From contig NZ_JAVIWI010000001.1 in assembly GCF_034314085.1 (NCBI RefSeq), forward strand, positions 2,666,001 through 2,730,000: a stretch of 64,000 nucleotides of DNA, written 5' to 3'. Shown piece after piece: positions 21,184 through 61,202 of this stretch. The translations under genes and the position numbers were made by a program. Below the pieces are notes generated by a model that did no database searches, was not told the DNA's origin, and was given only the letters and a program-made list of their open reading frames with translations. Source of the DNA: Undibacterium sp. 5I1. GTDB taxonomy: Bacteria > Pseudomonadota > Gammaproteobacteria > Burkholderiales > Burkholderiaceae_D. Position 1 is the stretch's first letter. Every line of letters begins with the position of its first letter.

Positions 21184-21270
21184 AATATATATACTCCCAC
21201 TATGTATATTTAATCGTCCATATAATCATTGGACAATGAGGGATATTTTAAATAAATAAGGGGGAGTATA
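21184..21270 (+). repeat. TATACTCCCC palindromic repeat, copy A (long type)
   Basis: An 87-bp element beginning AATATATATACTCCCA and ending GGGGGAGTATA, with a central hairpin CGTCCA...TGGACA. The ends are inverted repeats of one another. It lies between the M14 gene and the YfcC gene and ends 31 bp before the latter's start. Same family as copies B-G. Confidence 0.88.
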
Positions 21271-21301
21271 TGAATATCCGCCAATATTGGAGATGCAAAA
21301 A

Positions 21302-22693
21302 ATGAAAAAACTCAAACTCCCCAACACCTTTGTGCTGCTGTTTTCTCTATTGGCCTTAATTGCGCTAGCAACCTGGCTAGTGCCCGGCGGCAAATACGAT
21401 ACGCACGTCGTCAATGGCAAAACTTTGATCGATCCTGCCACCTTCCATTACATCACCAGCAATCCGCAAGGTTTTGTGGCCTTGATGATGGCGCCAATCA
21501 AAGGTTTTGTTGAAGCGGCGCTGATCATCGGCTTTGTGCTGATTGTCGGCGGTGCGTTTGCCGTGTTGCAAAAAACCGAGGCGATCGATTCTATGATCAA
21601 GTCGGTGGCAAAGGCGCACACCAATTCTGCATTCATCCGGGCAATGATTATCCCGGTCTTTGTCACTATGTTTTCGCTCGGCGGTGCGACCTTTGGCATG
21701 AGTGAAGAAGCGATCCCCTTTATTTTGATTTTTATCCCGCTGGCATTGGCCTTGGGCTATGACTCGATTGTGGGAGTCTCGATCCCGTTTATCGGATCGC
21801 AAGTCGGCTTTGCTGCGGCATTTTTAAACCCGTTTAATGTCGGTATCGCGCAGGGCATCGCCGGTGTGCCGGTGTTTTCTGGCTTGCAATACCGTGTGAT
21901 TGTGTGGGTGATTGCTACCACTCTGACCATCGGCTTTTTAATGTGGTACGCCGCGAAAATTAAACAATCACCAGAGAAAAGTCCGACCTTTGAACTTGAT
22001 CAAGAGAAAAGAAAAAGTCTCAAGCACGATGAGTTTACGCACTTTACCGGTGTCACTGTCACGCATAAATTAGTCTTGCTGTTATTTGCGGCCTCGTTGG
22101 GCGTTATGGTGCTGGGCGTCGTCAAGTATGAGTGGTTTATTAATGAGATTGCGGCATTGTTTTTAGTCATGGCGATCATCGTCGGCGTCGTCGGCAAATT
22201 AAGCTCGGACGAATTTATCGAGGCATTTTTACAAGGCGCAAAAGATCTGGTCACCACTGCGCTGGTGATTGCCCTGGCACGCGGCACCATGATCCTCGCC
22301 CGGGACGCCAATATCATCGACACCATGCTCCATGGTCTGATGCCATTTGTGCAGTCAGCCAGCCCGGTGTTTGCGGCGCAAAAAATGTTTCTGATCCAAA
22401 CCGTGATTAACTTTTTCATCCACTCAGGTAGCGGACAAGCCGCGTTGACCATGCCGATCATGGCTCCATTGGCGGATTTGGTCGGGGTGACGCGGCAAAC
22501 CGCGATTCTGGCTTTTCAGTTTGGTGAATTTACGACACCGATGATCCCGACATCTGGCATTACTGTCGGCGTATTGGCCTTGGCACGGATACCCTGGGCA
22601 ACTTGGGCAAAGTGGATGATCCCGCTGCAATTAATGTATCTGGTACTGGCATTGCTGCTGCTGATTCCACCTTGTCTGATGTATTGGCAATAG
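21302..22693 (+). CDS. YfcC-family (DcuC/ArcD-like) basic amino acid transporter
   Basis: 463 residues with 11-12 membrane segments. It matches the YfcC family: KLPNTFVLLFSLLALIALATWLVPGG at the start, a central GMSEEAIPF segment, and SGSGQAALTMPIMAPLADLVG in the C-terminal half. The family contains arginine/ornithine-type antiporters and uncharacterised dicarboxylate-carrier relatives. The ATG at 21302 has GGAG nine bases ahead (21289-21292) and is preferred over TTG 21287 and ATG 21293. Position beside an amidohydrolase and a cyanophycinase suggests import or exchange of arginine, aspartyl-arginine or a breakdown product. Repeat copies A and B bracket the gene; a terminator follows at 22858-22894. 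Confidence 0.85.
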   Translation: MKKLKLPNTFVLLFSLLALIALATWLVPGGKYDTHVVNGKTLIDPATFHYITSNPQGFVALMMAPIKGFVEAALIIGFVLIVGGAFAVLQKTEAIDSMIKSVAKAHTNSAFIRAMIIPVFVTMFSLGGATFGMSEEAIPFILIFIPLALALGYDSIVGVSIPFIGSQVGFAAAFLNPFNVGIAQGIAGVPVFSGLQYRVIVWVIATTLTIGFLMWYAAKIKQSPEKSPTFELDQEKRKSLKHDEFTHFTGVTVTHKLVLLLFAASLGVMVLGVVKYEWFINEIAALFLVMAIIVGVVGKLSSDEFIEAFLQGAKDLVTTALVIALARGTMILARDANIIDTMLHGLMPFVQSASPVFAAQKMFLIQTVINFFIHSGSGQAALTMPIMAPLADLVGVTRQTAILAFQFGEFTTPMIPTSGITVGVLALARIPWATWAKWMIPLQLMYLVLALLLLIPPCLMYWQ

Positions 22694-22739
22694 GCTGAAA
22701 ATGGCAGGCCAAAGCGGTAGATTTAATCAAGGCTTTATA

Positions 22740-22827
22740 TATACTCCCCTTTATTTTTTACAAATATGCCGTATTGTCCAGACTTTATATGGACAACTGC
22801 AATATACGGGGTAGGAGTAATTATATT
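22740..22827 (-). repeat. TATACTCCCC palindromic repeat, copy B (long type)
   Basis: Begins TATATACTCCCC and ends TAGGAGTAATTATATT on the plus strand, i.e. inverted relative to copy A. The centre is TTGTCCA...TGGACAA. It is in the 3' untranslated region of the YfcC gene, just ahead of the terminator. A small open frame running out of it is not believable as a gene. Confidence 0.85.
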
Positions 22828-22857
22828 AGGCCTCGGTAGTATTCTCATCAAAAAAAG

Positions 22858-22894
22858 AAAAAGCCTGCCAATTTTCATTGAGCAGGCTTTTTTT
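22858..22894. terminator. Bidirectional terminator between YfcC and flavodoxin genes
   Basis: The stem AAAGCCTGC/GCAGGCTTT (22860-22868 and 22882-22890) has a 13-nt loop, an A-rich flank on the left and TTTTTTT on the right, so it can serve both convergent genes. Confidence 0.85.
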
Positions 22895-23028
22895 GGCGCT
22901 AAAATGTTGACGGGTCTGCTGATGGATCAGATTGCTTCACTTAATGGCTTAACTTCGTTGATTCACTTCCTTGATCAACTCCGCTAGCCATCCCTCCGCA
23001 AATCAACTCATCTATCGCAGCCGGATCA

Positions 23029-23601
23029 TTACTTAGTGAACCGTGCAGCCACTTCTGCAATACGCTTACCAAATAATTTTGCGGTTTCTAAATCGCCTGG
23101 CAACGGACCTTCTTCTGGCGAAGAATCAGACGGTGATTGCGTCATTAAGCCAGAAGAGCTGGCCAGATAATTAACGTCATTACGCTGCGCTGCCTTGCTG
23201 TTGGATGGCATCAATCCAGTACCAGCCCAGATCATGGAATGCTGTTGCGACAGGGTGAACAGGTAGTGAAGCGTCGACAGTTTATCGCCATTCATGCTGG
23301 CAGAATTGGTGAAAGCGCCAGCGATTTTATCTCGCCATACTTGTGAATACCAAGGCTTGGACGTGGCATCAGCAAACTTCTTAAACTGCCAGGAAACCGT
23401 GCCCATATAGGTCGGTGATCCAAAGATGATCGCATCAGCTTCTGCCAGACTGGCCCAGTTGGCATCAGCGATATTGCCTTCGGCATCAATCGCAATCAGT
23501 TCTGCTGCTGCACCTGCCGCTGCGGCACCTGCATGGACTGCTTCTGCTGCTTTTTTAGTGTGGCCATAACCTGAGTGGTACACAATCGCTACTTTTTTCA
23601 T
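23029..23601 (-). CDS. Flavodoxin-family NAD(P)H-type oxidoreductase
   Basis: 190 residues with the flavodoxin fold of WrbA-like quinone reductases: the FMN phosphate loop HSGYGHTKKAAEA (about 9-21), FGSPTYMGTVSWQFKKFAD (about 72-90) and a middle block with NSASMNGDKLSTL. It would use FMN to reduce quinones or other electrophiles. It follows the pirin gene by 95 bp on the same strand, and a divergent LysR regulator sits beyond pirin, a common small stress-response arrangement. Exact substrate cannot be inferred. Confidence 0.85.
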   Translation of the reverse strand: MKKVAIVYHSGYGHTKKAAEAVHAGAAAAGAAAELIAIDAEGNIADANWASLAEADAIIFGSPTYMGTVSWQFKKFADATSKPWYSQVWRDKIAGAFTNSASMNGDKLSTLHYLFTLSQQHSMIWAGTGLMPSNSKAAQRNDVNYLASSSGLMTQSPSDSSPEEGPLPGDLETAKLFGKRIAEVAARFTK

Positions 23602-23615
23602 GGGAGTTCCTTTTA

Positions 23616-23647
23616 GTTATTTCGTTATTTCGTTATTTCGTTATTTC
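23616..23647. repeat. Four tandem GTTATTTC units
   Basis: Four exact copies of the 8-mer GTTATTTC, immediately upstream of the flavodoxin gene's ribosome site (GGGAGTTCC read on the plus strand is GGAACTCCC on the message). It is in the pirin-flavodoxin spacer. Confidence 0.9.
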
Positions 23648-23696
23648 ATTCATCAATCATCGCGTCAGAGTATGTTTACCGATCGGCTTAGCCAAA

Positions 23697-24398
23697 CTAT
23701 TTTGGTAAATCAAACACCAGCACTTCTGCCTGCTTTCCCGCTTCCAACTGCACTAATTCCTCTTCACGCAATTTCACCGCATCGCCCGCTGACAACTGCA
23801 CGCCGTTGACAGTCAGTTGACCGCTTGCCAGATGGATATAGGCAAGGCGATCTTTCGATAAGATCAAACTACTCGCTTGCTCGCCGTCAAACAGACCAAT
23901 ATACAAACGCGCGTCTTGACGGATTTTAATGGAATCATCCGCACCATCGGGCGACGCAACCAGGCGCAGGCGACCAGCTTTGTCTTCCCGACTAAAATGT
24001 TTTTCCTGATAAGCTGGTGTCGCGTTAATCACGGACGGCTGTATCCAGATCTGCAATAAGTGCGTGGGATTGTCCGCAGAGGGATTAAATTCAGAATGAC
24101 GAACGCCTGTTCCGGCGCTCATGTACTGCACATTACCCGGGAGAATGGTGCTGCCATTGCCCATGCTGTCTTTATGCGCAATCGCTCCTTCAAGCACGTA
24201 GGTAATAATTTCCATATCCTTATGACCATGCGTCCCAAACCCCATTCCGGCCGCGATATGATCGTCATTAATCACGCGCAAAGGACCATAACCCATGTGT
24301 GCCGGATCGTGGTAATCGGCAAAGGAAAAACTGTGATGAGATCTCAGCCAGCCGTGCTCGGCATAGCCGCGTTGTTCTGATTTATGAACTGTCAGCAT
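23697..24398 (-). CDS. Pirin family protein (YhhW-like bicupin)
   Basis: 233 residues. Metal-ligand motif of the N-terminal cupin: HSFSFADYHDP (about 22-32), FGTHGHKDMEIITYVLEG (about 55-72) and SAGTGVRHSEFNPS (about 95-108), giving the usual 3-His/1-Glu site. YhhW-type pirins have quercetin 2,3-dioxygenase activity in vitro and are linked to redox or electrophile stress. The C-terminal cupin is shorter, as usual. Co-directional with the flavodoxin gene and divergent from a LysR regulator, which likely governs it. Confidence 0.9.
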   Translation of the reverse strand: MLTVHKSEQRGYAEHGWLRSHHSFSFADYHDPAHMGYGPLRVINDDHIAAGMGFGTHGHKDMEIITYVLEGAIAHKDSMGNGSTILPGNVQYMSAGTGVRHSEFNPSADNPTHLLQIWIQPSVINATPAYQEKHFSREDKAGRLRLVASPDGADDSIKIRQDARLYIGLFDGEQASSLILSKDRLAYIHLASGQLTVNGVQLSAGDAVKLREEELVQLEAGKQAEVLVFDLPK

Positions 24399-24538
24399 CG
24401 TATTTTTAGGGTTGGTGGAAACCCTACCTTATTCAAATAATTGATATGATGTGATGCAATATATACCTGCCAGAACTTGAATATAAGGGGAATATTTTCT
24501 ACTTCTCGTTCAGTATTTTTGTATAAGAATGATTCACC

Positions 24539-25456
24539 ATGAATTTAACTCTCGAAGCACTGCAAATTTTGGATGCCATCGACCGCAAAGGCAGCTTTGC
24601 GGCAGCGGCAAGCGCCTTAGATAAAGTGCCTTCCGCCATCACCTACAGTATCCGCAAACTGGAAGATGATCTGGACGTGCTGCTATTTGATCGACGCGGT
24701 CACCGCGCCAAGCTAACTACGGCCGGGCAAGAATTATTGACGCAAGGACGGCATTTATTATTGGCAGCAGAAGAGCTGGAGCAAAGGGTCAAGCGCACGG
24801 CAACAGGCTGGGAGGCGGAGTTACGTATCGTCATGGATGGCGTAATTCAGTTTGAACATTTTTTGCCACTGATTCAAGAATTCCAGCACCAGGCCTGCGG
24901 CACGCGCTTAAGAATTTCTCAAGAAACCTTATCCGGCGTATGGGAAACACTGCTCGCTGGTCGCGCAGATCTGGCGATTGGTGCCGCTTACGATGGACCA
25001 GATACCTTGCGCATGCATGGTGAGTATCAGACTCAGAGCATGGGCAATATCGATTGGGTCTTTGCCGTTGCGGCCAAACATCCGCTGGCAACAGCGCCGG
25101 AGCCATTGACATCGACCGTTATACAAAGCCACCGAGCAATCGCCGTTGGCGATACAGGTCGCAATCTGCCATCGATCAATGCAGGACTTCTGGCGGGCCA
25201 GGATACGCTGACAGTTCCCACATTGCAGGCAAAATTATTAGCGCAATTAGCGGGATTAGGCTGTGGTAATTTACCGCGCAAGCTTGCGTTGTCACATCTA
25301 CAATCTGGCGCATTGGTAGAAAAAACTTTGCAAGAAAACAGACTCACTGGCAATAACCACATTGCCTGGCGCAGAAACGACAAAGGAAAGGCGCTACAGT
25401 GGTTTTTACAACGATTAGCTGATCCGGTGGTACAGCGCATGTTATTGGGCAGCTGA
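24539..25456 (+). CDS. LysR-family transcriptional regulator
   Basis: 305 residues: N-terminal winged helix (about 5-65; FAAAASALDKVPSAITYSIRKLEDDL) and LysR substrate-binding domain (about 90-295). It diverges from pirin, 140 bp away, and so probably controls the pirin-flavodoxin pair and itself. Members close to this sequence are often paired with pirin and are thought to respond to electrophiles or oxidants; that is context only. Its stop codon is two bases before the gluQ start, so the two may be translated together. Confidence 0.9.
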   Translation: MNLTLEALQILDAIDRKGSFAAAASALDKVPSAITYSIRKLEDDLDVLLFDRRGHRAKLTTAGQELLTQGRHLLLAAEELEQRVKRTATGWEAELRIVMDGVIQFEHFLPLIQEFQHQACGTRLRISQETLSGVWETLLAGRADLAIGAAYDGPDTLRMHGEYQTQSMGNIDWVFAVAAKHPLATAPEPLTSTVIQSHRAIAVGDTGRNLPSINAGLLAGQDTLTVPTLQAKLLAQLAGLGCGNLPRKLALSHLQSGALVEKTLQENRLTGNNHIAWRRNDKGKALQWFLQRLADPVVQRMLLGS

Positions 25457-25458
25457 CG

Positions 25459-26490
25459 ATGGTGACTAGCTTGAACAAGTTGAATAACTATGTTGGACGT
25501 TTTGCCCCCTCACCCACGGGCGCCTTACATATGGGGTCTTTAGTAGCGGCAATGGCGAGTTACTTAGACGCCAAAGCCCACGATGGAAAATGGCTACTCA
25601 GAATCGAAGATTTAGACTTTGACAGAGATGTCAAAGGCGCTGATTTAGCCATCATCGAACTATTGCGCCGTTGCAAAATGCAATGGAACGATGCCATTGA
25701 ATGGCAAAGCCAGCGCACCCATTTATACGACACCGCTTTCCGGCAACTAGCCCCGATGATTTATCCCTGCAGCTGTTCGCGTAAAGAGATTGCTGATTCG
25801 CGGCGTAGTTCTCTTACTTCAACCTCAAATTCAAGCATAAATTCAACCTCAAGCTCAACCTCAGCGCTACCGTCAACATCACGATTTGGTTTAGTGATTT
25901 ATCCTGGCACTTGCCGTGCAGGTCTGGCAAACAACAAACCCGCCCGCGCCTGGCGCTTGCGGGTACCGGATGAAGATCAAGGTCTGATGACATTCACCGA
26001 CCGATGGTTAGGTGAAATTCGTCAGAATATTGCGATCGAGGCAGGTGATTTTGTTTTAAAACGCGCAGATGGTTTCTGGGCATATCAACTCGCTGTGGTG
26101 GTTGACGATGCGGCGCAAGGTGTAACTCATGTTGTACGCGGTGATGATTTATTAGACTCGACGCCGAGGCAAATTTATTTACAAGATTTGCTGGGGTTAC
26201 CACATGTGCAGTATCTGCATATTCCGGTGGTTGCCAATGTGAATGGCGACAAACTGTCTAAACAAACGGGCGCGCAAGCGATTGATGTCAGTGGCAGCGA
26301 ACGTGATGTATTGCATCAGGCTTTACTACCAGCTGCAGAATTATTGGGATTAAAAATCGAGACCCAACAATACGGAGATACCTTGGAAGAATTTTGGCAC
26401 AGCGCTGTTACAGCATGGAGACAATTACTGGAACAGCGCGAGAGGCGTAGAACTGAGTTGGAACCAATTTGGAACCAAGTTAAGGTTTAA
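25459..26490 (+). CDS. gluQ: Glutamyl-Q tRNA(Asp) synthetase
   Basis: 343 residues. Class I synthetase motifs: PSPTGALHMGSLVAA (HIGH-like, about 17-31), a zinc ligand pair CSCSRKEI (near 101) and the KMSKS counterpart DKLSKQTG (near 264). The anticodon-binding domain of true GltX is absent, as expected for GluQRS, which glutamylates queuosine in tRNA(Asp). Odd feature: between the CSC pair and the later C of YPGTC lies a serine/threonine-rich run (about 111-136: SSLTSTSNSS and similar), longer than usual. Start ATG 25459 follows the LysR stop by 2 bp. queG for the preceding queuosine step is at 61.3-62.4 kb. Confidence 0.92.
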   Translation: MVTSLNKLNNYVGRFAPSPTGALHMGSLVAAMASYLDAKAHDGKWLLRIEDLDFDRDVKGADLAIIELLRRCKMQWNDAIEWQSQRTHLYDTAFRQLAPMIYPCSCSRKEIADSRRSSLTSTSNSSINSTSSSTSALPSTSRFGLVIYPGTCRAGLANNKPARAWRLRVPDEDQGLMTFTDRWLGEIRQNIAIEAGDFVLKRADGFWAYQLAVVVDDAAQGVTHVVRGDDLLDSTPRQIYLQDLLGLPHVQYLHIPVVANVNGDKLSKQTGAQAIDVSGSERDVLHQALLPAAELLGLKIETQQYGDTLEEFWHSAVTAWRQLLEQRERRRTELEPIWNQVKV

Positions 26491-26496
26491 TGGCAA

Positions 26497-28011
26497 TCAA
26501 TCAGTCCGACGCAGACCGCCAAGCAATGCCGCTTTTTTCTGCGGTTTGGCCGCTGTTTTATTTTCACTGGTTGCCGCTACTTTGATCGACGATGCGCTAG
26601 GTTCGTAAGGCTTTAAAAACCAAGGATCGACTTTTTCTCTTGGTGGATTAAAACTACGTGCAGGACGATCGAATGACTTTTCAGCCGTTCTGTCTATGGA
26701 TCTGCCTGCTGATCTGCCCTCTACATTATCCGTTGATTTTTCAGTCGCTCTATCGCTACTGAATTGACGTGGTTTACGCTCCGCTAGTTGCTGCGTCTGC
26801 GCGACAAAACCTGCCAATTGCACTTTGACGATTTTTTGCTTGATCAATTTTTCAATATCAAGCAGCAAACGCTCATCTTTATCTGTGTGCAAAGAAATCG
26901 CATCGCCAGTCGCACCAGCACGGCCAGTGCGGCCAATCCGATGGACATAATCTTCTGCGTTATACGGTAAATCGTAGTTGATGACGCAAGGCAGTTCGGC
27001 GATATCTAAACCACGTGCAGCCACATCGGTCGCTACTAGTACTTCAACTTCTCCACGTTTGAATGCATCTAAGGCAGCCATGCGCTCTGCCTGAGATTTA
27101 TCACCATGGATTGCTGAGGCTTTTACACCTTGTTTGACTAAATGCACGGCCAGACGCGAAGCACCAATCTTGGTGTTGGAAAAAACGATTACTTGTTTTA
27201 AACCACGCTCGCGGATAATGAACGAGACCGCGTCGCGCTTCTCTTCCTCAGCCACTTTATACAAAATTTGTGTCACATTGTCCGCAGTTGCATTGCTGCG
27301 GGCAACTTCGATCATGACTGGATTGCTTAAAAAACTGGCAGCCAGTTTTTTAATTTCTGGCGAGAACGTAGCAGAGAACATTAAGTTCTGACGCTGCTTT
27401 GGCAACAAATTAATGATGCGTTGCAGATCAGGCAAAAAGCCCATGTCTAACATACGGTCCGCTTCATCCATGATCAGGATTTGCGTCTGCGATAAGTTAA
27501 TCGTTTTCTGCTGAATGTGATCCAACAAGCGACCAGGTGTCGCAATCACAATCTCAACACCGGCACGCAGGGCTGCTGTCTGTGGCGCCATATCCATCCC
27601 ACCAAAAACGACAGTGGAACGCAATGGTGTATGGCGCGAATATGCCTGAACATTTTCAGCCACCTGATCAGCCAGTTCACGCGTTGGCGTCAAAATTAGA
27701 GCACGAACTGGGTGGCGAGCTGGCGAGGCGCTGGTGCTCGCGTGCGCTAACAACAATTGAATAATCGGCAGCGAGAAGCCAGCAGTTTTGCCAGTACCCG
27801 TTTGTGCAGCACCCATCACGTCGCGGCCTTGCAATACGATAGGAATTGCCTCAGCTTGAATCGGTGTGGGGTGTACGTAACCTTGATCAGATAAAGCGCG
27901 CAAAATCTCAGGCGACAGTCCGAAATCTTCGAAACGTATGGTAGGTACAGAGGGGGCAGAATCTACTACAACGGTAGCGATCTGCTCAGGATTGGACTTG
28001 ATATCAGTCAT
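26497..28011 (-). CDS. rhlE: DEAD-box RNA helicase RhlE
   Basis: About 504 residues from ATG 28011. A longer frame (GTG 28044) would run into the tRNA gene and is rejected. Motifs: Q motif FEDFGLSPEILRAL then GYVHPTPIQ (about 29-51), Walker A AAQTGTGKTAGF, DEAD as MDEADRMLDMGF, SAT as MFSATFSPE, and HRIGRTGRAG. The C-terminal ~110 residues are basic, low in complexity and rich in Ser/Arg/Lys (RSAGRSIDRTAEKS), as in other RhlE proteins that act on ribosome assembly or cold mRNA. There is no Shine-Dalgarno sequence at 28011, because the tRNA ends only 10 bases ahead. Confidence 0.9.
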   Translation of the reverse strand: MTDIKSNPEQIATVVVDSAPSVPTIRFEDFGLSPEILRALSDQGYVHPTPIQAEAIPIVLQGRDVMGAAQTGTGKTAGFSLPIIQLLLAHASTSASPARHPVRALILTPTRELADQVAENVQAYSRHTPLRSTVVFGGMDMAPQTAALRAGVEIVIATPGRLLDHIQQKTINLSQTQILIMDEADRMLDMGFLPDLQRIINLLPKQRQNLMFSATFSPEIKKLAASFLSNPVMIEVARSNATADNVTQILYKVAEEEKRDAVSFIIRERGLKQVIVFSNTKIGASRLAVHLVKQGVKASAIHGDKSQAERMAALDAFKRGEVEVLVATDVAARGLDIAELPCVINYDLPYNAEDYVHRIGRTGRAGATGDAISLHTDKDERLLLDIEKLIKQKIVKVQLAGFVAQTQQLAERKPRQFSSDRATEKSTDNVEGRSAGRSIDRTAEKSFDRPARSFNPPREKVDPWFLKPYEPSASSIKVAATSENKTAAKPQKKAALLGGLRRTD

Positions 28012-28021
28012 TGTATGATGG

Positions 28022-28096
<75 letters not shown>

Positions 28097-28225
28097 AATT
28101 CTTTCTGCAAGCTAAGCTGCTTAAATCTGACAAATATCCGTGTATGAATCTTTATCAGGGTTATGCAGGTATCGCTTTAACGCTGTCACCTGCAAATTGT
28201 TGAATTCAAAAAAAGCTCAAATTCA

Positions 28226-28258
28226 AACGCAAAACAGGCGTCGAAAAAACCGACGCCA
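28226..28258 (-). terminator. Intrinsic terminator after rpoD
   Basis: On the minus strand GGCGTCG (28257-28251)/CGACGCC (28243-28237) forms a 7-bp stem with a TTTTTT-containing loop, followed by TGTTTTGCGTTTG. It is 12 bp downstream of the rpoD stop codon. The T-run after the stem is broken, so strength is uncertain. Confidence 0.6.
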
Positions 28259-28269
28259 ATTGTATTACA

Positions 28270-34009: not shown

Positions 34010-34317
34010 TTAAGTTCGGAACCAATGAAAAATTTATAGGAAGAACGAGATAATAGCAGAGTTTTCAGGCGTTTGGAAGTAGCTTGATTAAATCTTACGC
34101 AATCTTGTGCAAAAAAGTAATCGCAAACCTGCTTTACTGGGATTACCAAAACTCAAAAACCACATCGTAAAATTCAATATTTTAGGGAGTATAGTTAAAA
34201 ACCATAGCTATTGTCCAAATATTGCCTGGACAAATAAAAATACAGCAGGCAGTACCTTAGTCCGATAAAAAAACAACGTCAGTCTTTTATTATTAAATCA
34301 AACTTTAATCGAACCTG
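34010..34317. other. Region between rpsU and the BaiN-type gene
   Basis: 308 bp. It holds the rpsU promoter side (34010-34100), a half-site CTTACGCAA at 34094 similar to the ends of the larger repeat elements, and repeat copy C at 34185-34256. Nothing else is clear. Confidence 0.5.
34185..34256 (-). repeat. TATACTCCCC palindromic repeat, copy C (short type, degenerate)
   Basis: 72 bp beginning GGGAGTATAG and ending CAGTACC on the plus strand, with central TTGTCCA...TGGACAA. The right arm hairpin is poorly kept. It belongs to the short type, whose tail end is inverted compared with the long type. Confidence 0.75.
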
Positions 34318-35568: not shown

Positions 35569-35653
35569 TTTTATTTTCTTACTTAGATAGTAGAAGCGAT
35601 TACATAGAAGCCATGATTGTAGCCGATGAGCAAGTCAGTCACGGACAAGCCAA

Positions 35654-35736
35654 TATACTCCCCATCATTTTTATAAAAAATCTCTTGCAGACCAATGATT
35701 ATATGGACAATTAAATATACATCTACCCAGTATATT
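35654..35736 (-). repeat. TATACTCCCC palindromic repeat, copy E (long type)
   Basis: 83 bp starting TATACTCCCC and ending CCAGTATATT on the plus strand; the reverse complement aligns base for base with copy D, including TTTTTATAAAAATGA next to GGGGAGTATA. The right half of the central hairpin has drifted (TTGGTCTGC). Confidence 0.88.
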
Positions 35737-36154
35737 AATTTAACGCATTTGAATAAATGATCACTAAGCTCGCAAAATCAGAAAAACGCCCTTTGACTTT
35801 GTTAAAAACATGTCCGCAATGATTGTTCACGTAAGTCCCCGCTATTCTTATTTAAAACACGTTTCAATATCAGCAAGATGGCCTCATAAGATTCCCGCAT
35901 ATCAATATTCTGTTTTAAATCCGCAACGTAATTTACACATATTGACGAAATTTGAAGACAAGATTAACTAAATCTTGACTTGACTTACGCAAGAAGAGAT
36001 AACAGAAACATCGGTGACGCAAACGATTGCGCTGTCGGTCACAAAATCAATGTAACGAGTTCGATAACGATGCTTTGAGCGAATGTGTAAAGAAACTACC
36101 CACACGCTGCTTTGAACACTCATCCAATGGGTAGATGCCCTCCCCCGGCCACCC

Positions 36155-42715: not shown

Positions 42716-42779
42716 GTTTTTACCTTTTTTGATAATTGCCTGAAGCACTGAACAAGTAGATTCAATACATATACAGATT

Positions 42780-42863
42780 AAATATACTCGTTACCAGTAT
42801 TTTTTATTGTCCATATATTCTCTGGACATTAAGGCTATTTTTATAAAAATGAGGGGGAGTATA
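42780..42863 (+). repeat. TATACTCCCC palindromic repeat, copy D (long type)
   Basis: 84 bp. AAATATACT...AGTATTTTT hairpin, TTGTCCA...TGGACATT hairpin, then TTTTTATAAAAATGA and GGGGGAGTATA. It lies inside the likely nitrate operon transcript, between nirD and nasA, so the message would carry two consecutive hairpins there. Confidence 0.9.
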
Positions 42864-42936
42864 GTCAATTTCACTCTATAACTTGGGAATGTTTGTGAGT
42901 TCCCGTAATTTTTTGTACAAACTAAAAACTTAAAAA

Positions 42937-49274: not shown

Positions 49275-49313
49275 CTTAATTTGTGCGGCGCACTATTTTT
49301 GTACGCATCAAAA

Positions 49314-49973: not shown

Positions 49974-50119
49974 CTGATCCCAATGCTTGCTGGTAGTATT
50001 GCTAGTAGTCGCTATAATTCTGGTCTTGCGCGAAATTGGCATGTTCTGTTGAACACACTTGTTGGGAACAGACATGCAAGAATCGCTCCACTCTGTTACA
50101 AATTACCAGAAAAAAATCT

Positions 50120-51160: not shown

Positions 51161-51218
51161 TTCAGCTGGTTGCACTCAATCTGCCGAATGTATAAAGCAT
51201 AGCCTTACTCAAAAATGG

Positions 51219-51683: not shown

Positions 51684-51867
51684 AGTATGTCTCCTGAATG
51701 AAAGAAAAAGCAAAAACTACAAATGGCTTAGGCTGCATTGTTAGTATGTCCTAGCTTTTTTATTATCAGACATATCAAGTGCAATGGCGAGGCAAACTTT
51801 TCGTCACAGCACGGAGATGACACATCAACAATCAGGCTTTGAAGAAATTTTCTGTGGCGAGATAGGA

Positions 51868-52473: not shown

Positions 52474-52502
52474 GCAATTCTTTCTTTTGTTCTATTTAAA
52501 TT

Positions 52503-52578
52503 AAATATACTCAATACAGTATATTTTAACGTCCAATAATTATCTGGACAATATAGGGTATTTTTACTGATACTCCCC
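52503..52578 (+). repeat. TATACTCCCC palindromic repeat, copy F (short type)
   Basis: 76 bp: AAATATACT...AGTATATTT is an exact 9-bp hairpin, followed by CGTCCA...TGGACAAT, then TTTTTACTGATACTCCCC. The tail reads TACTCCCC instead of GGGGAGTA of the long type. Confidence 0.88.
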
Positions 52579-52598
52579 TAACATAGCTAATACAAGCT

Positions 52599-53090: not shown

Positions 53091-53171
53091 AATAGTCTCT
53101 GTCTGTCATACCAAAATCAGAATTAAATTATATCTGGATGATGCTATTGCTCAACAATATTGCCACTAAGT

Positions 53172-54125: not shown

Positions 54126-54646
54126 AAAGTCTCCTGAGTTGATTTGGTAAAGGTATCTGACACGCCCTCATGTGCCAGCAACCAGCGCTTTACACCCAGA
54201 TGGAATCCTGTCTCATCATCATGGTGTGCAAAGCCTCCCAAACCACCTGCGGCAGTCACCCGATGGCATGGAATAATCAAAGGATACCAGTTCGCACCGC
54301 AAGCTTGTCCAACGGCGCGCGGTGCTGATTGGATATGTTTCGCAATCTGACCATAAGTTCTGATCTCACCACGTGGAATGCTTGATATTGCTTGCCAGAC
54401 CTTAGTCTGAAACGGACTACCAACAGGTTTTAGGGGAAGATTAAATTTAAAATCGGCTTGTGCAAAATAACGGGTAATTTCCTGTGCGGCATTATCTGCG
54501 GTCTTATCGGTCGCCGATTTTTCTGCGAAGCGAGGTGGGAGATAGACCAGTTCGCAGATCATCTGCGACTCGGTACGAATGCCGATTGCGCCGAACGGAG
54601 CATGCACAATAGCGGAGAATAATCCGGTTTCTCTGTCGTCTTGCAT
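54116..54646 (-). CDS. ogt: Methylated-DNA-[protein]-cysteine S-methyltransferase
   Basis: About 176 residues from ATG 54646 (a longer TTG frame starts at 54661). The C-terminal half has the active-site PCHR in LIIPCHRVTAAGG (near 145), and QTKVWQAISSIPRGEIRTYGQIA (about 100-122) is the helix-turn-helix of the AGT fold. It removes O6-methylguanine or O4-methylthymine by suicide transfer to cysteine. Overlaps the xerD start. No Ada-type domain. Confidence 0.92.
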   Translation of the reverse strand: MQDDRETGLFSAIVHAPFGAIGIRTESQMICELVYLPPRFAEKSATDKTADNAAQEITRYFAQADFKFNLPLKPVGSPFQTKVWQAISSIPRGEIRTYGQIAKHIQSAPRAVGQACGANWYPLIIPCHRVTAAGGLGGFAHHDDETGFHLGVKRWLLAHEGVSDTFTKSTQETLWK

Positions 54647-55078
54647 CGTAATCCCAGGCAAAAAATAATCAAAAAGAAAAACAATTAGGCCAAAGAAAAA
54701 AGGCGCATCAGGGATGCGCCTTTAAAACATCTTTCGCGTTTCGGGCTGTTTAGCGCTAGCTCACTCTTTTAGCACTCAGCTTGTAGTAAAACGCGTGTCT
54801 CCTCAGTGTGTACGGCATGGATACCGTTTTTTGCACTACCGCCTTGTAAATTCGTTCTCTTTATTTTTTTTGATAACTTTTAATCTGCCAAGAATATAGC
54901 ACTTAATTTGCACACATTCAAACCGAATTTAAAAAGAAGCTGCACAAAAATGGGGCGTTGTTGCATATAAGTATAAATACTGAGATTGCATAAAATTATG
55001 CTGGACATCACAAATTTATTCCTCTTCATTTTTCTAAAAACCGTATTAAGCAATGCTCAATACGGTTTTATCCAACAT
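54647..55078. other. Intergenic region with hairpin and structured stretch
   Basis: 432 bp between ogt and dctM. It holds a bidirectional terminator-like hairpin (54701-54723) and, beyond it (about 54740-54890), a stretch with several small inverted repeats that could be a leader RNA or small RNA. I cannot name an RNA family for it. The rest is AT-rich and featureless. Confidence 0.45.
54699..54726. terminator. Bidirectional terminator hairpin upstream of ogt
   Basis: AAGGCGCATC/GATGCGCCTT with loop AGG, A-run on one side and T-run on the other. It lies ahead of ogt on the minus strand, so a minus-strand transcript would meet it before ogt. Confidence 0.75.
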
Positions 55079-56359
55079 TTATTTGTACACAAGCTGCGGT
55101 AACCAAGTAGAAATTTGCGGCACGTAAGTAATTAACAATAAGAAACCAATCATCGTTAACAACCAAGGCATCACCGCTATCGTCAGCTCAGTAATCCCCA
55201 TTTTGGTGATTCCAGATGCCACATAAAGATTAAGCCCGACCGGTGGATGACACATACCGACCTCCATATTCACCACCATAATGATGCCAAAATGAACTGG
55301 ATCTATCCCTAATTTCGTAGCAACAGGGAATAAGATCGGTGCCATGATCAGCACAATCGACGATGGCTCCATCACATTACCCGCCATCAGCAACAGCACA
55401 TTGACCACCAACAAGAAGCTGATCATGCCGAAACCTTTGTCCATGATCCATCCCGCCATCGCCTGCGGAATATTCTCACTAGTCATCAAAAATGAGAACA
55501 GTACTGCGTTAGTGATGATGTACAACAACATGGCAGACATAGCGGCAGAATCTAGCAACACTTTTGGCACCTTGGCCAGACTCATATCTTTGTACACAAA
55601 GACCGCTACGACAAACGTATACATAGCTGAGACGGCAGCCGCCTCGGTCGGCGTAAACATCCCGGTATAAATGCCGCCCATCACGATCACGATTAATAAC
55701 AAACCCCATGCACTTTTACGGAAATAACCCCAACGTTCTTTCCAGCTGGCTTTTGGCATACGCGGATAATTATGCTTACGCGCCAAAAACCAAGTCGTCA
55801 ATCCAAGACAAATTGCCAGTAACAATCCCGGAATTACTCCCGCCATAAATAATTGGCCGACCGAAGTATTGGTAGATACCGAGTACATCACCATCACAAT
55901 CGACGGCGGGATCAAAATACCCAATGCGCCCGAGGTTGTGATGACACCAGCGCCAAAACCTTTTGGATAACCTTGTTTGACCATCGCAGGCAAAATAATG
56001 GAGCCGATCGCCACCACAGTGGCGGGGGAAGATCCAGATACCGCAGCAAACAAAGCGCAAGCCATCACACCCGCCAATGCCAGGCCACCATGCCAATGAC
56101 CGACCATAGAGGCGGCAAAATTAATCATGCGCCGCGCTACCCCTCCATGAGTCAGGAAGTTACCCGCCAAAATAAAAAACGGGATCGCCATAATTTCAAA
56201 CTTCTCGATTCCTGTAAAAAGCTTCAGCGCGACTGACTCAATCGGAACTGTGGTCATCGTGAACAAAAAGGTCAATACTGTTAAGCCCAAAGAAATCGAG
56301 ATCGGCATTCCAGTCAACATAAGCACTAACAACAGGACGAAAATAATGGCGGCGTTCAT
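55079..56359 (-). CDS. dctM: TRAP transporter large permease DctM
   Basis: 426 residues, about 12 membrane helices. GMPISISLGLTVLTFL near the start and FFILAGNFLTHGGVARRMINF (about 60-82), SGSSPATVVAIGSIILPAM (about 110-128), and NVMEPSSIVLIMAPIL in the second half are DctM signatures. Its start overlaps the dctQ stop (ATGA). With DctQ and DctP it takes up C4-dicarboxylates or other organic acids with sodium. Confidence 0.94.
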   Translation of the reverse strand: MNAAIIFVLLLVLMLTGMPISISLGLTVLTFLFTMTTVPIESVALKLFTGIEKFEIMAIPFFILAGNFLTHGGVARRMINFAASMVGHWHGGLALAGVMACALFAAVSGSSPATVVAIGSIILPAMVKQGYPKGFGAGVITTSGALGILIPPSIVMVMYSVSTNTSVGQLFMAGVIPGLLLAICLGLTTWFLARKHNYPRMPKASWKERWGYFRKSAWGLLLIVIVMGGIYTGMFTPTEAAAVSAMYTFVVAVFVYKDMSLAKVPKVLLDSAAMSAMLLYIITNAVLFSFLMTSENIPQAMAGWIMDKGFGMISFLLVVNVLLLMAGNVMEPSSIVLIMAPILFPVATKLGIDPVHFGIIMVVNMEVGMCHPPVGLNLYVASGITKMGITELTIAVMPWLLTMIGFLLLITYVPQISTWLPQLVYK

Positions 56360-56907
56360 GCTTTCACCTCTTCTTCCAAACCTTCAACATGCGAATGATC
56401 ATGCTTCGGCAACTCACCTGTTTTCACGAAAGTCCATGCAACTTGTAAAAAACGAAATGACATGAGGGAAGAACCTAAGGGAATCGCCAAATAGACGATC
56501 CACATCGGCACCTCCAGATCGGATGAAGTTTGATCGGTGTGCGCCAGTGACCAGACAAATTTACTACCAAGTACAGCAACAATCGCAGTAAATAAAGCGC
56601 CAGACAATAATCCAAGAACGACAAACTTATTTCGCCAAGGCGTATTCATTTTGTTGATCAAGACATCAACGCCGACGTGAATACCTGTGCGGACTCCATA
56701 TGCAGCACCAAATTTCGCCATCCAGACAAACATATAAATGGTCAGCTCTTGTGCCCAGCTAAGGTTAATTTTAATCAATGCGTCCTGCACAACCGGGATG
56801 GGGAAGCCGGACGCATAACGATGCAAGACCGCGATAAAAGTGATGAGCGTAGCGGCGCCCATCAGAAAGGCAATTAGCCATTCTTCTAAGTGATCTAAAA
56901 ATTTCAT
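56356..56907 (-). CDS. dctQ: TRAP transporter small permease DctQ
   Basis: 183 residues with four membrane segments and a His/Glu-rich C-terminus (HDHSHVEGLEEE). It belongs to the DctQ group of TRAP small subunits (NLSWAQELTIYMFVWMAKFGAAYGVR). It is 200 bp behind dctP and overlaps dctM by 4 bp. Confidence 0.92.
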   Translation of the reverse strand: MKFLDHLEEWLIAFLMGAATLITFIAVLHRYASGFPIPVVQDALIKINLSWAQELTIYMFVWMAKFGAAYGVRTGIHVGVDVLINKMNTPWRNKFVVLGLLSGALFTAIVAVLGSKFVWSLAHTDQTSSDLEVPMWIVYLAIPLGSSLMSFRFLQVAWTFVKTGELPKHDHSHVEGLEEEVKA

Positions 56908-57052
56908 AGTCCCTCTGAGGAGTGAGAGTAAAGAAAAAGGGCAATACCTGTCTGTAAAAAGTAGGGATTACAGATGCGCTAGACAAATACCTTAATGGCG
57001 GACTAACAGGTTCTATCTAGCTAAGGTAAGGGAATGATAAAAGTCAAAATAT

Positions 57053-57091
57053 CCAACTGATCTCAAAGGCGATCTCAGAAAATTCAGTTGG
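57053..57091 (-). promoter_or_regulatory. Hairpin between dctP and dctQ
   Basis: CCAACTGA (57053-57060)/TCAGTTGG (57084-57091) form a perfect 8-bp inverted repeat with a 23-nt loop. It lies 17 bp behind the dctP stop codon. Such structures often lower transcription into dctQM, so that binding protein is made in excess over the permeases. Confidence 0.55.
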
Positions 57092-57107
57092 TAATTTCAA
57101 TGGCAAT

Positions 57108-58109
57108 TTATTTGCCTTCGCCCGTCGACAATTTACGAATCGACGCAATTAACTCTTTACCAATCCTCGGTTCCATCTCCGTCTGCACTGGCAGTAAGGC
57201 TTTGCGCCACTCTGCTTTTTCTTGCGGTGTCAGCTCATAAATTGTGGTCTTACCCGTTTTGCGAATCGCATCTAATGCACGACCGTTTTCCTGATCGGCA
57301 ATCGCGTTTGCATAGGCAGTCGCGCCTTTCATTGCAGAATCTAGCTCGGTACGGATATCTGCCGGCAAGCTATCCCAGAATTTTTTATTAACGATCACGG
57401 CATACCCAAGATAACCATGATTTGATACGGTTACATGCTTTTGTACTTCATGCATTTTTTGGGTGTACATATTGGATGGCGGATTTTCAGTGCCATCGAC
57501 TACGCCAGTTTGTAAGGCTTGATAAACTTCAGAAAACGCCAGTACTTGTGGATTTGCACCCAAAGCACGCATCTGCGCATCTAATACTTTAGAGGACTGA
57601 ATGCGCATCTTCAAACCCTTGAAATCAGCCGGCGCATGCAGCGGCTTATTGGCTGACATAATTTTAAAACCGTTATCCCAAAATGCCAGACCAGTGATCC
57701 CTTTTGGTTCTAATTTCTGTAACAGGCTTTTACCGATAGGGCCTTCGGTCACTTGATGCAATACATCTTTAAACGGAAAAATATACGGCAGATCAAACAC
57801 CTCAAATTCTTTTACACCCAATGGACCGAATTTTGCCAGCGACGGTGCAAGCATTTGTACTGCGCCTAATTGCAGAGCTTCCAGTTCTTCTTTATCTTTG
57901 TACAAAGTACTGTTTGGATATAGCTCGACCTTGACACGGCCTTTGGTATTTTTTTCGGCAAGCTCTTTAAAACGTTCTGCTGCCTTGCCTTTTGGTGTAT
58001 CACTGGCTACAACGTGACTAAATTTGATGACGATGGGGGTTTGTGCAAATGCGGCACCACTAACGACGGATGCCGTGAGCAAGCAGCACAATAGGGATGT
58101 GAGTTTCAT
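57108..58109 (-). CDS. dctP: TRAP transporter substrate-binding protein DctP
   Basis: 333 residues. Signal peptide (about 1-22, cleavage after AFA), then a TRAP-type binding domain with KFSHVVASDTPKGKAAERFKEL near 30 and the signature arginine region LKMRIQSSKVLDAQMRALGANP (near 165). Typical DctP length. It is the first gene of dctPQM, opposite to the dctB gene with a 248-bp shared control region. Confidence 0.94.
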   Translation of the reverse strand: MKLTSLLCCLLTASVVSGAAFAQTPIVIKFSHVVASDTPKGKAAERFKELAEKNTKGRVKVELYPNSTLYKDKEELEALQLGAVQMLAPSLAKFGPLGVKEFEVFDLPYIFPFKDVLHQVTEGPIGKSLLQKLEPKGITGLAFWDNGFKIMSANKPLHAPADFKGLKMRIQSSKVLDAQMRALGANPQVLAFSEVYQALQTGVVDGTENPPSNMYTQKMHEVQKHVTVSNHGYLGYAVIVNKKFWDSLPADIRTELDSAMKGATAYANAIADQENGRALDAIRKTGKTTIYELTPQEKAEWRKALLPVQTEMEPRIGKELIASIRKLSTGEGK

Positions 58110-58195
58110 GTTTGTCTCCTGATCATTGTTTTAAATATTTTTTGAAAAACTTTTTTAGTCCTGCGAGTATTCGCGGCAACATTAAACTATGCAAC

Positions 58196-58209
58196 TGTGG
58201 TTAACCACA
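58196..58209. promoter_or_regulatory. Perfect 14-bp palindrome TGTGGTTAACCACA
   Basis: Exact palindrome in the dctP/dctB gap, about 87 bp from dctP and 149 bp from dctB. It is a natural candidate for binding of the LuxR/FixJ-type DctR, which is encoded next door. Confidence 0.55.
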
Positions 58210-58250
58210 ATGAGACAGGGCTGACAGGTAGCGACAACACCTAGTAAATT

Positions 58251-58300
58251 GAAATGCGTCAAAATTCATCGGAATACATCGGAATACATCGCAGTACGTC
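58251..58300. repeat. Array of 10-bp units, consensus GGAATACATC
   Basis: Five consecutive 10-mers: GAAATGCGTC, AAAATTCATC, GGAATACATC, GGAATACATC, GCAGTACGTC. Two are identical. On the minus strand the unit reads GATGTATTCC, which shares GATGT with the array at 36155. Confidence 0.8.
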
Positions 58301-58357
58301 CTAAATAAGCGCGCGCAACTAAACCTAAGCCTAACCAGGCAAAGTAGACTACCGGAC

Positions 58358-60472
58358 ATGAAGACTTTTGTTAAACCTAGAGCGTGGCCCAATCAAAAAT
58401 GGCGCTGGCTACTGCCTATCCTGCTGGTGAGTTTATTCGTCACTATTTTGATCTGGCTGCCATGGCAGGCGCAAAGAATGGAAACTAATGAGCGTCAAGA
58501 GCAACTGATTGCGGATACCTTGTGGGTAGAGCAAACGATACAGTTCCAATTGGGCAGGGATGAAGAAGTATTGCATCAGATCGGTACTGATATTAATGCT
58601 GGCAAATTGTCGCAAGCGCAAGCGCTTGATCGTTTCAGACACGTTATAAAAAGTAATAAAGAAATCAAAAGCATCATCTGGTTTGATAGTAAAGATCAGA
58701 TCGTCATCTCGACATCAGATGTTGGCTTACCCGACAAGCGTAGCTTCATTTTTGAACATACGAAGTCTGGTCCGGCAGATGTTAAATTAGCCGTCGATGC
58801 CAAAACACGTTGCCTGCCACCGGTACAAGGTGCAGGGAAATCCGGCATGTCTACACTGAGTTGCCAGATTCCGATGATTGCAGAAAATCAAAGAACAGGT
58901 AGCTTGGTCGTGACCTATTTTCTATCAGGTATCTTAGATGAAATGGTGCCGTGGTGGTTTGCACAAGATAACGAAATTTCCTTAATTGATAGCGACGATA
59001 AAGTCTTTGCAAGACGCGCCGCTGGCGGCCCAGGAAAAAATGTCTACACCCATAATCGCCCGTTAGATTTACCAAACGTGACACTGATTTTGCGTACTAA
59101 TAGTAATAAGAGTGAACCTAAATTACTCTCCAATTTATTGGTGCTGTCCGTCATCTTGCTGTCGTTTGGTCTGATCTGGAGTTTGCTAGCCCTATGGCGT
59201 GACATTAATCGTCGGCTAGCGGCAGAAGATGCTTTGCGCCAGCAAGTCGCGTTCAGAACAGCGATGGAAAACTCGCTCGTTACTGGCTTGCGCGCACGCG
59301 ATATGGCGGGTCGACTTACTTACGTCAATCCTGCATTTTGCAAGATGGTGGAACATCCGGCAGAAGACATCGTCGGCAGATTGCCACCGATGCCGTATTG
59401 GGCACCAGAAGCGTTTGAAGAATATCGCCATCGTTTTACTCAATTGCTAGCAGGTACGGTGCCGTCAGAAGGATTTGAAACGATTTATCAACGCGCCAGT
59501 GGTGAGCGTTTTCCCGTGCTGATTTACGAGTCCCGGCTAGTGGATGAGAACGGTGTGCAGACCGGTTGGATGAGTTCTATTCTGGATATTTCTGAACTCA
59601 AACGTGCTCAGGAACTGACACGGCAACAACAAGAGATGCTGCACGCCAGTGCTCGCTTAGCGACTATGGGTGAAATCGCATCAATCCTTGCGCACGAGCT
59701 GAATCAGCCATTGGCAGCAATCTCCAGCTACACCACGGGCGCTATCAATTTGCTGCAATCGCCACAAGAGAATAATCAAAATAATCCGCAAATAAACTCA
59801 ACGGCACCTGATCAGACGCCACTGCAATCACTGCTCTTAAGCGCATTAGAAAAAGCCAACGCGCAAGCACAACGTGCAGGTCACATCATCCATAGCGTGC
59901 ACGATTTTGTGAAGAAACGAGAATCCAGCCGCGAGCCGGTCAGTATTGCCACGCTGTTGCAAAGCGTGATGCCACTGGTGGAATTACAAGCGCAAGCCTC
60001 GTATGTCAACATTCAGTACACCATCGCGGAGCCCTTGCCGATGGTGCAAGCGGATCGGATTTTGCTAGAGCAGGTCATACTCAATCTGACGCGAAATGCC
60101 ATTGAGGCGATGGAGCATTCGCCACCTGAACGCAGTATTTTGCGCATCGTTGCGCGGACAGAACATGGCAATGACAAGCCTGATGTCAGCACTACCGATG
60201 TCACGAGTCACAGCACGAATCACGTCACGAACAACATCATTCATAACGTCACTCCGGGTCACTATATTGCGATAGAAGTGATCGATCAGGGTCATGGTAT
60301 TTCTGCCGAAGTGGCGGCACAATTGTTTTCACCATTTTTCTCTACCAAGCCTAGCGGCATGGGTATGGGCTTAAAAATCTGCCGTACCGCGATCGAATTC
60401 CACGGCGGCGTGCTTAGCCATCATGACAATCCCGCTGGTGGTACTATCTTTAGATTTTTATTGCCCATTTAA
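58358..60472 (+). CDS. Sensor histidine kinase, DctB/DctS type
   Basis: 704 residues. N-terminal membrane helix (about 18-38), a ~220-residue periplasmic sensor (double-Cache-like), second membrane helix (near 258-280), PAS (about 295-415; FRTAMENSLVTGLRARDMAGRLTYVNPAF), HisKA with the phospho-histidine in ILAHELNQPLAAISS (near 448) and the HATPase (ILEQVILNLTRNAIEAME; GMGMGLKICRT). An asparagine/glutamine-rich loop (NNQNNPQINS) near 475 is unusual but looks like a loop insert. It should sense the TRAP substrate and signal to the response regulator that follows. Confidence 0.9.
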   Translation: MKTFVKPRAWPNQKWRWLLPILLVSLFVTILIWLPWQAQRMETNERQEQLIADTLWVEQTIQFQLGRDEEVLHQIGTDINAGKLSQAQALDRFRHVIKSNKEIKSIIWFDSKDQIVISTSDVGLPDKRSFIFEHTKSGPADVKLAVDAKTRCLPPVQGAGKSGMSTLSCQIPMIAENQRTGSLVVTYFLSGILDEMVPWWFAQDNEISLIDSDDKVFARRAAGGPGKNVYTHNRPLDLPNVTLILRTNSNKSEPKLLSNLLVLSVILLSFGLIWSLLALWRDINRRLAAEDALRQQVAFRTAMENSLVTGLRARDMAGRLTYVNPAFCKMVEHPAEDIVGRLPPMPYWAPEAFEEYRHRFTQLLAGTVPSEGFETIYQRASGERFPVLIYESRLVDENGVQTGWMSSILDISELKRAQELTRQQQEMLHASARLATMGEIASILAHELNQPLAAISSYTTGAINLLQSPQENNQNNPQINSTAPDQTPLQSLLLSALEKANAQAQRAGHIIHSVHDFVKKRESSREPVSIATLLQSVMPLVELQAQASYVNIQYTIAEPLPMVQADRILLEQVILNLTRNAIEAMEHSPPERSILRIVARTEHGNDKPDVSTTDVTSHSTNHVTNNIIHNVTPGHYIAIEVIDQGHGISAEVAAQLFSPFFSTKPSGMGMGLKICRTAIEFHGGVLSHHDNPAGGTIFRFLLPI

Positions 60473-60512
60473 AGAGAGCGTTCACGCTCCTCAATCGTCT
60501 ACTGGAGACTGC

Positions 60513-61103
60513 ATGCTTCATATTATCGATGACGAAGAAGTCATCAGAGATGCCCTGTCATGGTTAGCCCGCTCCAGAAATATTGTGGCGACCAGCTACG
60601 ACAGTGCAGAAAAATTCTTGGCAGCGCTGGATCATCCCCTGCAATACGATCCGCAAGGCGACTGCATCTTGCTTGATGTGCGGATGCCGGGCATCAGCGG
60701 CACAACCTTATTTGACATGCTGACCGTACGCCAAGTGACCCGGCGCTTACCCGTCATATTTTTGACTGGGCATGGTGATGTGCCAATGGCGGTCGATACG
60801 CTGAAACGCGGTGCCTTCGATTTTTTTGAAAAACCGTTTAACGATAATAAGTTAATGGACAGAGTGCAGGAAGCTTTGGCGCAATCAAGAGAAGCTATCG
60901 CAGAAGCCGCCGTGCACGAACGCCTGGCAAGACTGTCCGCGCGCGAACGTGCAGTCCTGGATTTGATCTTGCTCGGAAAAATGAATAAAGTGATCGCCGA
61001 CCAGTTAGGCATCAGCATGCGCACAGTCGAAGTCCACCGGGCGCATATTTTTGACAAAATGCAAGTCAAAACCGCGGTGGAATTAGCTGGCTTACTGAAA
61101 TAA
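60513..61103 (+). CDS. Two-component response regulator, FixJ/LuxR type (DctR-like)
   Basis: 196 residues from ATG 60513 (GGAG six bases ahead); the longer frame opening at 60423 overlaps the kinase end. Receiver domain with acidic pair IIDDEEV (about 4-10), phospho-aspartate in CILLDVRMPGISG (near 52) and conserved lysine in FFEKPF (near 107); C-terminal LuxR helix-turn-helix (about 135-195; LSARERAVLDLILLGKMNKVIADQLGISMRTVEVHRAHIFDKM). Likely activates dctPQM. Confidence 0.93.
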   Translation: MLHIIDDEEVIRDALSWLARSRNIVATSYDSAEKFLAALDHPLQYDPQGDCILLDVRMPGISGTTLFDMLTVRQVTRRLPVIFLTGHGDVPMAVDTLKRGAFDFFEKPFNDNKLMDRVQEALAQSREAIAEAAVHERLARLSARERAVLDLILLGKMNKVIADQLGISMRTVEVHRAHIFDKMQVKTAVELAGLLK

Positions 61104-61128
61104 GCGACGCTCTTAATTTTGAAATAAG

Positions 61129-61202
61129 GGGAGTATGCTTAATTTTAGCCTGATTGACCAGTGATTATATGGACAACTAAAAATACACCACCCTAGTATT
61201 TA
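61129..61202 (-). repeat. TATACTCCCC palindromic repeat, copy G (short type)
   Basis: 74 bp reading GGGGAGTATG ... CTAGTATTT on the plus strand with a centre of TTGACCA...TGGACAA. Lies between the response regulator and queG, which converge. Confidence 0.82.

Follow-up and report, generated by a model that had tools for sequence, protein, structure and literature searches.

Whether hundreds of tiny bacterial repeats are kept by selfish spread or by host use is an old open question, and it is raised again by seven similar palindromic sequences in the window (the whole 64,000-nucleotide stretch of Undibacterium sp. 5I1 DNA analysed here). One-to-one matched resident copies in two close species make the question testable within one genus. 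The window lies within the 4.71-Mb contig of a 4.88-Mb genome of two contigs, referred to below as G000.

The Seven Copies Are Part of a Large Dispersed Family

The initial annotation described a seven-member family of repeats lying between genes in both orientations, none of them in a coding region. A profile search (E ≤0.01) of a 450-kb stretch holding the window recovers the same seven copies in both orientations and no eighth in the window (Table 1), and all seven are intergenic with respect to genes called by a simple custom script. The profile was built from 31 copies including four of these seven, so that the E-values of those four are good by construction; the three outside the profile are found at E 1.1e-4 (34208), 6.6e-5 (52504) and 1e-8 (61146). 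The copies show the features ascribed to the family, namely its hairpins, a T-rich stretch and the GGGGAGTATA end, and the remark that this end may be replaced by its inverse holds for three of the seven (34185, 52503 and 61129), in which the outer GGGGAGTAT end is inverted with respect to the core. We call these three type II and the four full-length copies type I. At the Rfam gathering score, the whole window gives no match except a tRNA (28022-28096).

Table 1. Repeat copies in the window, with strand and profile score (coordinates of the profile match in brackets)
Copy	Type	Position	Strand	Profile score
1	full-length type I, both GGGAGTATA ends	21188-21272	-	78.0 bits (21189-21273)
2	full-length type I	22737-22822	+	64.5 bits (22738-22820)
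3	type II, outer end inverted	34181-34260	+	21.0 bits, core only (34208-34255)
4	full-length type I, between divergent genes	35650-35738	+	61.2 bits (35651-35736)
5	full-length type I	42777-42867	-	64.7 bits (42781-42866)
6	type II, outer end inverted	52499-52582	-	21.6 bits, core only (52504-52564)
7	type II, outer end inverted	61125-61205	+	33.9 bits, core only (61146-61201)

The uninterrupted 450 kb holds 44 copies, one per 10.2 kb, which extrapolates to ~460 on the 4.71-Mb contig. Furthermore, the pattern TATACTCCC has 440 matches in the genome and its reversed control pattern seven, which places the family far beyond chance. The expectation of hundreds of copies, made on the assumption of an even density, is thus borne out, and the seven copies are part of a large dispersed family with several hundred members in the genome. 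A larger sample of the same genome (87 copies in 815 kb) contains 71 full-length type I copies and 16 others, among which some have an inverted left end and a few have exchanged end modules; most of these 16, with three of the seven window copies among them, have an end inverted or altered.

The Repeat Combines Inverted Ends with a Central Hairpin

The repeat is about 85-90 bp long. Type I copies follow the order ATATACTCCCC-nTTATTTTTATAAAATATGCCTTATT-GTCCA-loop-TGGAC-AATT-AAATATAC-nnnnnn-AGTATATTT, in which the left end forms an inverted pair with the far right end, and the inner AAATATAC forms a second palindrome with the same far right end. Weak conservation extends ~9 bases to the left of TACTCCC and ~8 bases to the right of AGTA. 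In own-species copies the left CCCC is nearly invariant, and the three bases of the right GGG are less so (71, 57 and 42 of 91), so the long end-to-end pairing is not kept in every copy. Between species the centre is variable, ATACTCCC is invariant, and conservation extends to the ends, the right GTAT, the inner ATA and the T stretch. Copies inside one species are alike over their full length, loops included.

The typed consensus folds as one long hairpin (z -3.7), and the seven window copies range from z -3.4 to +0.6. The central hairpin covaries between species, with a score of 0.298 against at most 0.156 for slid versions of the pairing. Among 500 shuffles, none reached the score, none the number of cells paired and four the number of cells changed on both sides, in a control that does not remove the relatedness of the sequences. 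Two further measures of the same hairpin, pairs changed on both sides (reached by 205 of 500 shuffles) and further pair types (126 of 500), are not above shuffles, and its two outer pairs are mostly unpaired (in 19 and 17 of 31 copies). Covariation was not found in the right palindrome, and the terminal pair varies too little for it, its score being reached by 13 of 500 shuffles.

Resident Copies Occupy the Same Sites in a Close Relative

G035, a close relative in the same GTDB genus, is 94-97% identical to G000 in aligned stretches. We counted a copy as testable when both of its flanks were present in the stretches of the other genome, and on this definition every testable copy is matched, 32 of 32 from G000 (out of 87 copies) and 33 of 33 from G035 (out of 47). 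Copy 4 of the window, for instance, has its counterpart at the corresponding G035 locus (C341). Judged by the distance from one flank to the other, the copy is present in 29 testable loci in each direction; the remaining seven rows (four loci) differ in length, with a copy detected on both sides in each, and one of these loci is ~1.1 kb longer in G000 owing to an IS30-family element inside the copy. The empty sites in related strains to which the initial annotation had pointed were absent among the 32 loci compared. Since every testable copy is matched at the same site, no movement is detectable since G000 and G035 split, and the copies seem to be no longer mobile.

In a second pair of genomes (G014 and G015, 200 kb each), two sites inspected closely gave no clean empty site: at one the copy is missing together with the neighbour gene, one end being left behind, and at the other it is missing together with about 1.1 kb. 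This pair is itself a mosaic (L217-L236) of blocks that are 97-100% and ~75-91% identical, a sign of recent recombination.

Target-site duplications, likewise named in the initial annotation, do not stand out at five bases or more, either in 61 own-genome copies or in 91 copies with G035 orthologues included. At most one of the 61 has a matching 6- to 9-base word at any border offset, and with 5-base words the largest excess is two against 0.5; among the 91, a few offsets have two or three copies with less than one expected. Duplications of two to four bases are beyond the reach of this search, the ends themselves reading TATA.

These results bear on the possibility that the family is a classical MITE derived by deletion from a DDE insertion sequence, with terminal inverted repeats TATACTCCCC...GGGGAGTATA, and immobile since its partner was lost. 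Terminal inverted repeats are indeed present in the full-length copies, and elements of the IS630/Tc1 kind duplicate only TA. A search for a full transposon with the same ends, over 450 kb of G000 and 368 kb of G035, met nine solo ends, of which one lies within an IS30-family element and, judged by position, no two point towards each other within 4 kb. Together with the lack of a duplication of five bases or more, the inversion of one end in three of the seven window copies and the slow change of the termini in immobile copies (see below), this makes a classical MITE unlikely.

The Repeat Is Patchily Distributed among Relatives

A model of the own-species copies, with at most 102 candidates scored per genome, finds matches in 20 of 43 genus genomes, 14 of which have at least ten hits. 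A genus-wide model, with ten candidates scored per genome, matches 34 of the 392 genomes sampled from the GTDB family, 26 within the genus and eight in four other genera. Seven species (G004, G018, G026, G031, G034, G040 and G042) have one or two hits among the ten scored. The flanks of the kept copy are alike in most of these low-copy species (L190, L194-L198, L200), and at two of the loci, inspected with genes named by eye, it lies between a SIS-domain gene and a sugar-transporter gene. With the first window copy as query, plasmid and phage collections gave no match at E 0.01.

A genome that has no match to the repeat, G005 (L237-L256), carries other dispersed words in 400 kb, CGTCATTCCCGCATGC 18 times and AGAGGCTGTCGCAAAA 19 times; absence of this repeat is therefore not absence of repeats.

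A RAYT-like Gene Is Present but Is Poorly Coupled to the Repeat

Ten matches to the IS200-type transposase family were found in the genome. One is a RAYT-like gene (L113:9314-10012) upstream of gltB, its reading frame open, which matches Pfam Y1_Tnp at 40.7 bits (cut-off 23) and NCBIfam REP_Tyr_transpos at 60 bits, below the cut-off of 80. As a repeat copy adjoins it in G000 and in G020, the gene seemed at first a strong candidate for the mobiliser of the family, and a RAYT transposase of the kind for which the initial annotation advised a search does exist here. The candidate was not borne out. Within the genus 40 of 43 genomes have a RAYT match, and across the family 384 of the 392 sampled do (matches of lower identity there need not be orthologues), far more than the 34 of 392 that hold the repeat, so that RAYT occurs where the repeat was not found; conversely, G031 has the repeat and no RAYT match, in a genome 93% complete. 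Among 30 RAYT loci of the genus, 14 of them from genomes with ten or more repeat copies, a repeat copy adjoins the gene in three (G000, G035 and G020), against a background of 83 intergenic copies per 362 larger intergenic regions.

The inverted repeats of the two also differ. On its 3′ side the RAYT-like gene carries another inverted pair, GGGGACATAGT...GGGTCAGTGTCA, in many loci, at least one of two exact patterns being present in 19 of 30, and each of five stretch sets has 0 or 1 match to it, so that this pair is not dispersed. It recalls the "TIRtrons" described in one report, which also states that inverted repeats containing GGGGWSAS accompany RAYTs in species that lack GTAG REPs; unlike the TIR families of TIRYT genes in that account, the inverted repeats beside the RAYT-like gene here differ from the dispersed repeat (PMC3733652). 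At 26 of the 30 genus loci the gene sits upstream of gltB and, being nearly family-wide, it looks domesticated.

A REPIN-type population mobilised by this gene would accord with its open reading frame and Y1_Tnp match, with the adjoining copies, and with the lack of a long duplication, as HUH enzymes are not known to make target duplications. GGAG, a rarer REP tag, is found in the ends of all 61 own-genome copies, without standing at the 5′ foot of a palindrome, and GTAG is not a conserved feature of these copies: it occurs in three of 61 (other strand, seven) and CGTC in six (18), and no conserved GTAG or CGTC column is seen in 31 cross-species copies. Given the patchy occurrence of the repeat relative to RAYT, its presence at three of 30 loci and the different inverted repeats, we do not file it as the REPIN of this gene, and mobilisation by it appears rather unlikely.

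Copies Avoid Divergent Regions and Lie Near Gene 3′ Ends

Of the 87 sampled copies, 84 could be placed relative to genes (three have no neighbour on one side of the block): 55 lie in tandem, 23 in convergent and five in divergent regions, and one, which is split by an insertion sequence, overlaps a called gene. The comparison set is the 362 intergenic regions no shorter than 110 bp, of which 217 are tandem, 60 convergent and 85 divergent. Relative to it, copies avoid divergent regions (5 of 83 intergenic copies versus 85 of 362 regions, P 1.3e-4) and show a mild preference for convergent ones (P 0.03). They lie at a median distance of 92 from gene 3′ ends and of 173 from gene 5′ ends. In tandem regions, no clear orientation bias is seen (22 same, 33 opposite, P 0.18). 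A similar placement has been described for GTAG/CGTC REPs, which lie downstream of genes and between unidirectional and convergent genes (PMC3733652).

Avoidance of divergent regions would also suit an element that is not mobile DNA, a host regulatory or terminator-like sequence that recurs because it is useful. Slowly changing termini and a copy kept in seven low-copy species (one or two hits among ten scored), with flanks mostly alike, point the same way. However, the likeness of copies within a species over their full length, including the loops, needs copying, and both the patchy presence between species and the lack of a clear orientation bias in tandem regions argue against such an origin, which we regard as very unlikely.

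The Termini Change Slowly in Resident Copies

That the termini of resident copies change slowly is the unexpected part of this analysis. Between G000 and G035, whole type I elements diverge like their flanks (0.075 and 0.074), and nine other copies diverge more than theirs (0.074 and 0.056). The termini behave differently: with both directions summed, 20 of 1317 terminal sites are changed where 56.5 are expected (P 2e-8), the expectation being half the composition-matched near-flank rate, counted only in the lineage not used for detection. The G/C part of the termini shows the same depletion (4 of 352 changed, 19.2 expected). Within the elements, the G035 lineage has 12 changes in 674 terminal sites versus 75 in 1284 elsewhere (P 1.4e-5), and hairpin arms (14 of 248), loop (10 of 164) and other element sites (51 of 872) change at the same rate. 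A single species pair underlies the test, with 26 copies in one direction and 25, mostly at the same loci, in the other. The conservation of these ends in settled copies suggests a possible use of the repeats by the cell.

A dead repeat family without a host role, its conserved termini a statistical or mutational artefact, would account for the flank-like divergence of whole type I elements and the faster divergence of the nine others, and the 12 changes in the G035 lineage, taken alone, make a weak test (P 0.003 to 0.064 depending on the flank rate assumed). Against it, the depletion persists in both directions when composition is matched and changes are counted in one lineage only, and the hairpin arms within these elements provide an internal control. 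We give this account a low probability.

The explanation that we put forward, slightly more probable than not, begins with short non-coding, non-autonomous palindromic repeats. These would have been copied around the chromosomes of Undibacterium and some relatives in the manner of REPINs and BIMEs by a putative trans-acting enzyme. Copying presumably needed the central hairpin, which covaries between species and drifts in resident copies. Furthermore, the absence of a long duplication speaks for copying by a single-strand (HUH-type) mechanism or into a target as short as TA. After settling, the ATATACTCCCC, AATATAC and GTATATT boxes of resident copies may be kept by host use near gene 3′ ends, the most likely user being a putative DNA-binding protein. 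We infer this division, hairpin for spreading and termini after settling, from one species pair. A bolder reading, to which we give a low probability, is that selection acts on the family in two separable ways, keeping the hairpin only during spread and the terminal boxes in immobile copies because hundreds of them serve a host DNA-binding protein at gene 3′ ends; the repeat would then be a domesticated genome-wide binding-site network seeded by a mobile element.

The Family Resembles REPINs and BIMEs

The initial annotation placed the repeats as a MITE or REP/BIME-like element. What stood of this is a dispersed, intergenic, inverted-ended family of hundreds of copies with REP/BIME-like behaviour: placement on the 3′ side of genes, avoidance of divergent promoter regions and rearranged end modules all fit. 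The MITE half fared less well, as no duplication of five bases or more, no empty site (32 loci) and, in the stretches scanned, no facing solo-end pair was found, and the family is not REP in the strict sense (GTAG in three and CGTC in six of 61 copies). On balance, the repeat is somewhat more probably than otherwise a new REPIN/BIME-like family that lacks the REP GTAG/CGTC tag, with MITE status an unproven candidate.

Enterobacterial BIMEs are mosaics of inverted palindromic modules in several arrangements between genes. The repeat shares with them its inverted palindromic modules, their several arrangements and its intergenic position; unlike them it occurs mostly as single units and not in clusters, and we know of no sequence likeness between the two. 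Bacterial MITEs such as Correia elements have inverted ends, intergenic positions and hundreds of copies, as does the repeat, for which an autonomous partner was not found in the stretches scanned, nor a duplication of five bases or more. REPINs are REP doublets that form hairpins; like them, the repeat is short, dispersed, extragenic, non-autonomous and inverted-ended, with conserved ends and a less conserved spacer, but its ends are not GTAG-tagged REP hairpins, its right end holds an extra palindrome, it has several end arrangements and it adjoins the candidate RAYT at three of 30 loci (PMC3116915). It likewise differs from the GTAG/CGTC REPs in lacking their tag (PMC3733652). BIMEs are named in a further report (PMC8266576). 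Judged by titles and the starts of abstracts, the literature searched on Undibacterium MITEs or palindromic repeats and on Oxalobacteraceae repetitive extragenic palindromic sequences describes no such repeat, and none appears by title among the best-ranked papers on Burkholderia and Ralstonia interspersed mosaic elements.

IS30-Family Elements within the Repeat

Pairs of TATACTCCC matches ~1080 bp apart were considered as a possible autonomous element. Of five such pairs fetched, three are IS30-family inserts in repeats and two (L032, L035) have no common insert; this reading of the pairs was rejected on these grounds. Four IS30-family copies were met in all. Three, of about 1.1 kb, lie at the same spot in full-length type I copies (L031, L033 and L034, at 948.5k, 1702k and 2181k of G000), and the fourth (G000 2,921,811-2,922,906) lies beside an apparent rearranged repeat copy. 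The first transposase matches NF033563 at 267.7 bits (cut-off 80). The element looks like a repeat-targeting insertion sequence, a parallel being ISPpu9 in the REPs of Pseudomonas putida (PMC8450116).

A separate direct repeat, outside the window at G000 C1:2502521-2505291, has 43 matches spaced 65-66 bp in the part inspected; its unit begins AGTTTAGCAGATTGGGATATGTGCTCTGACCGGAAC, and it looks like a CRISPR array.
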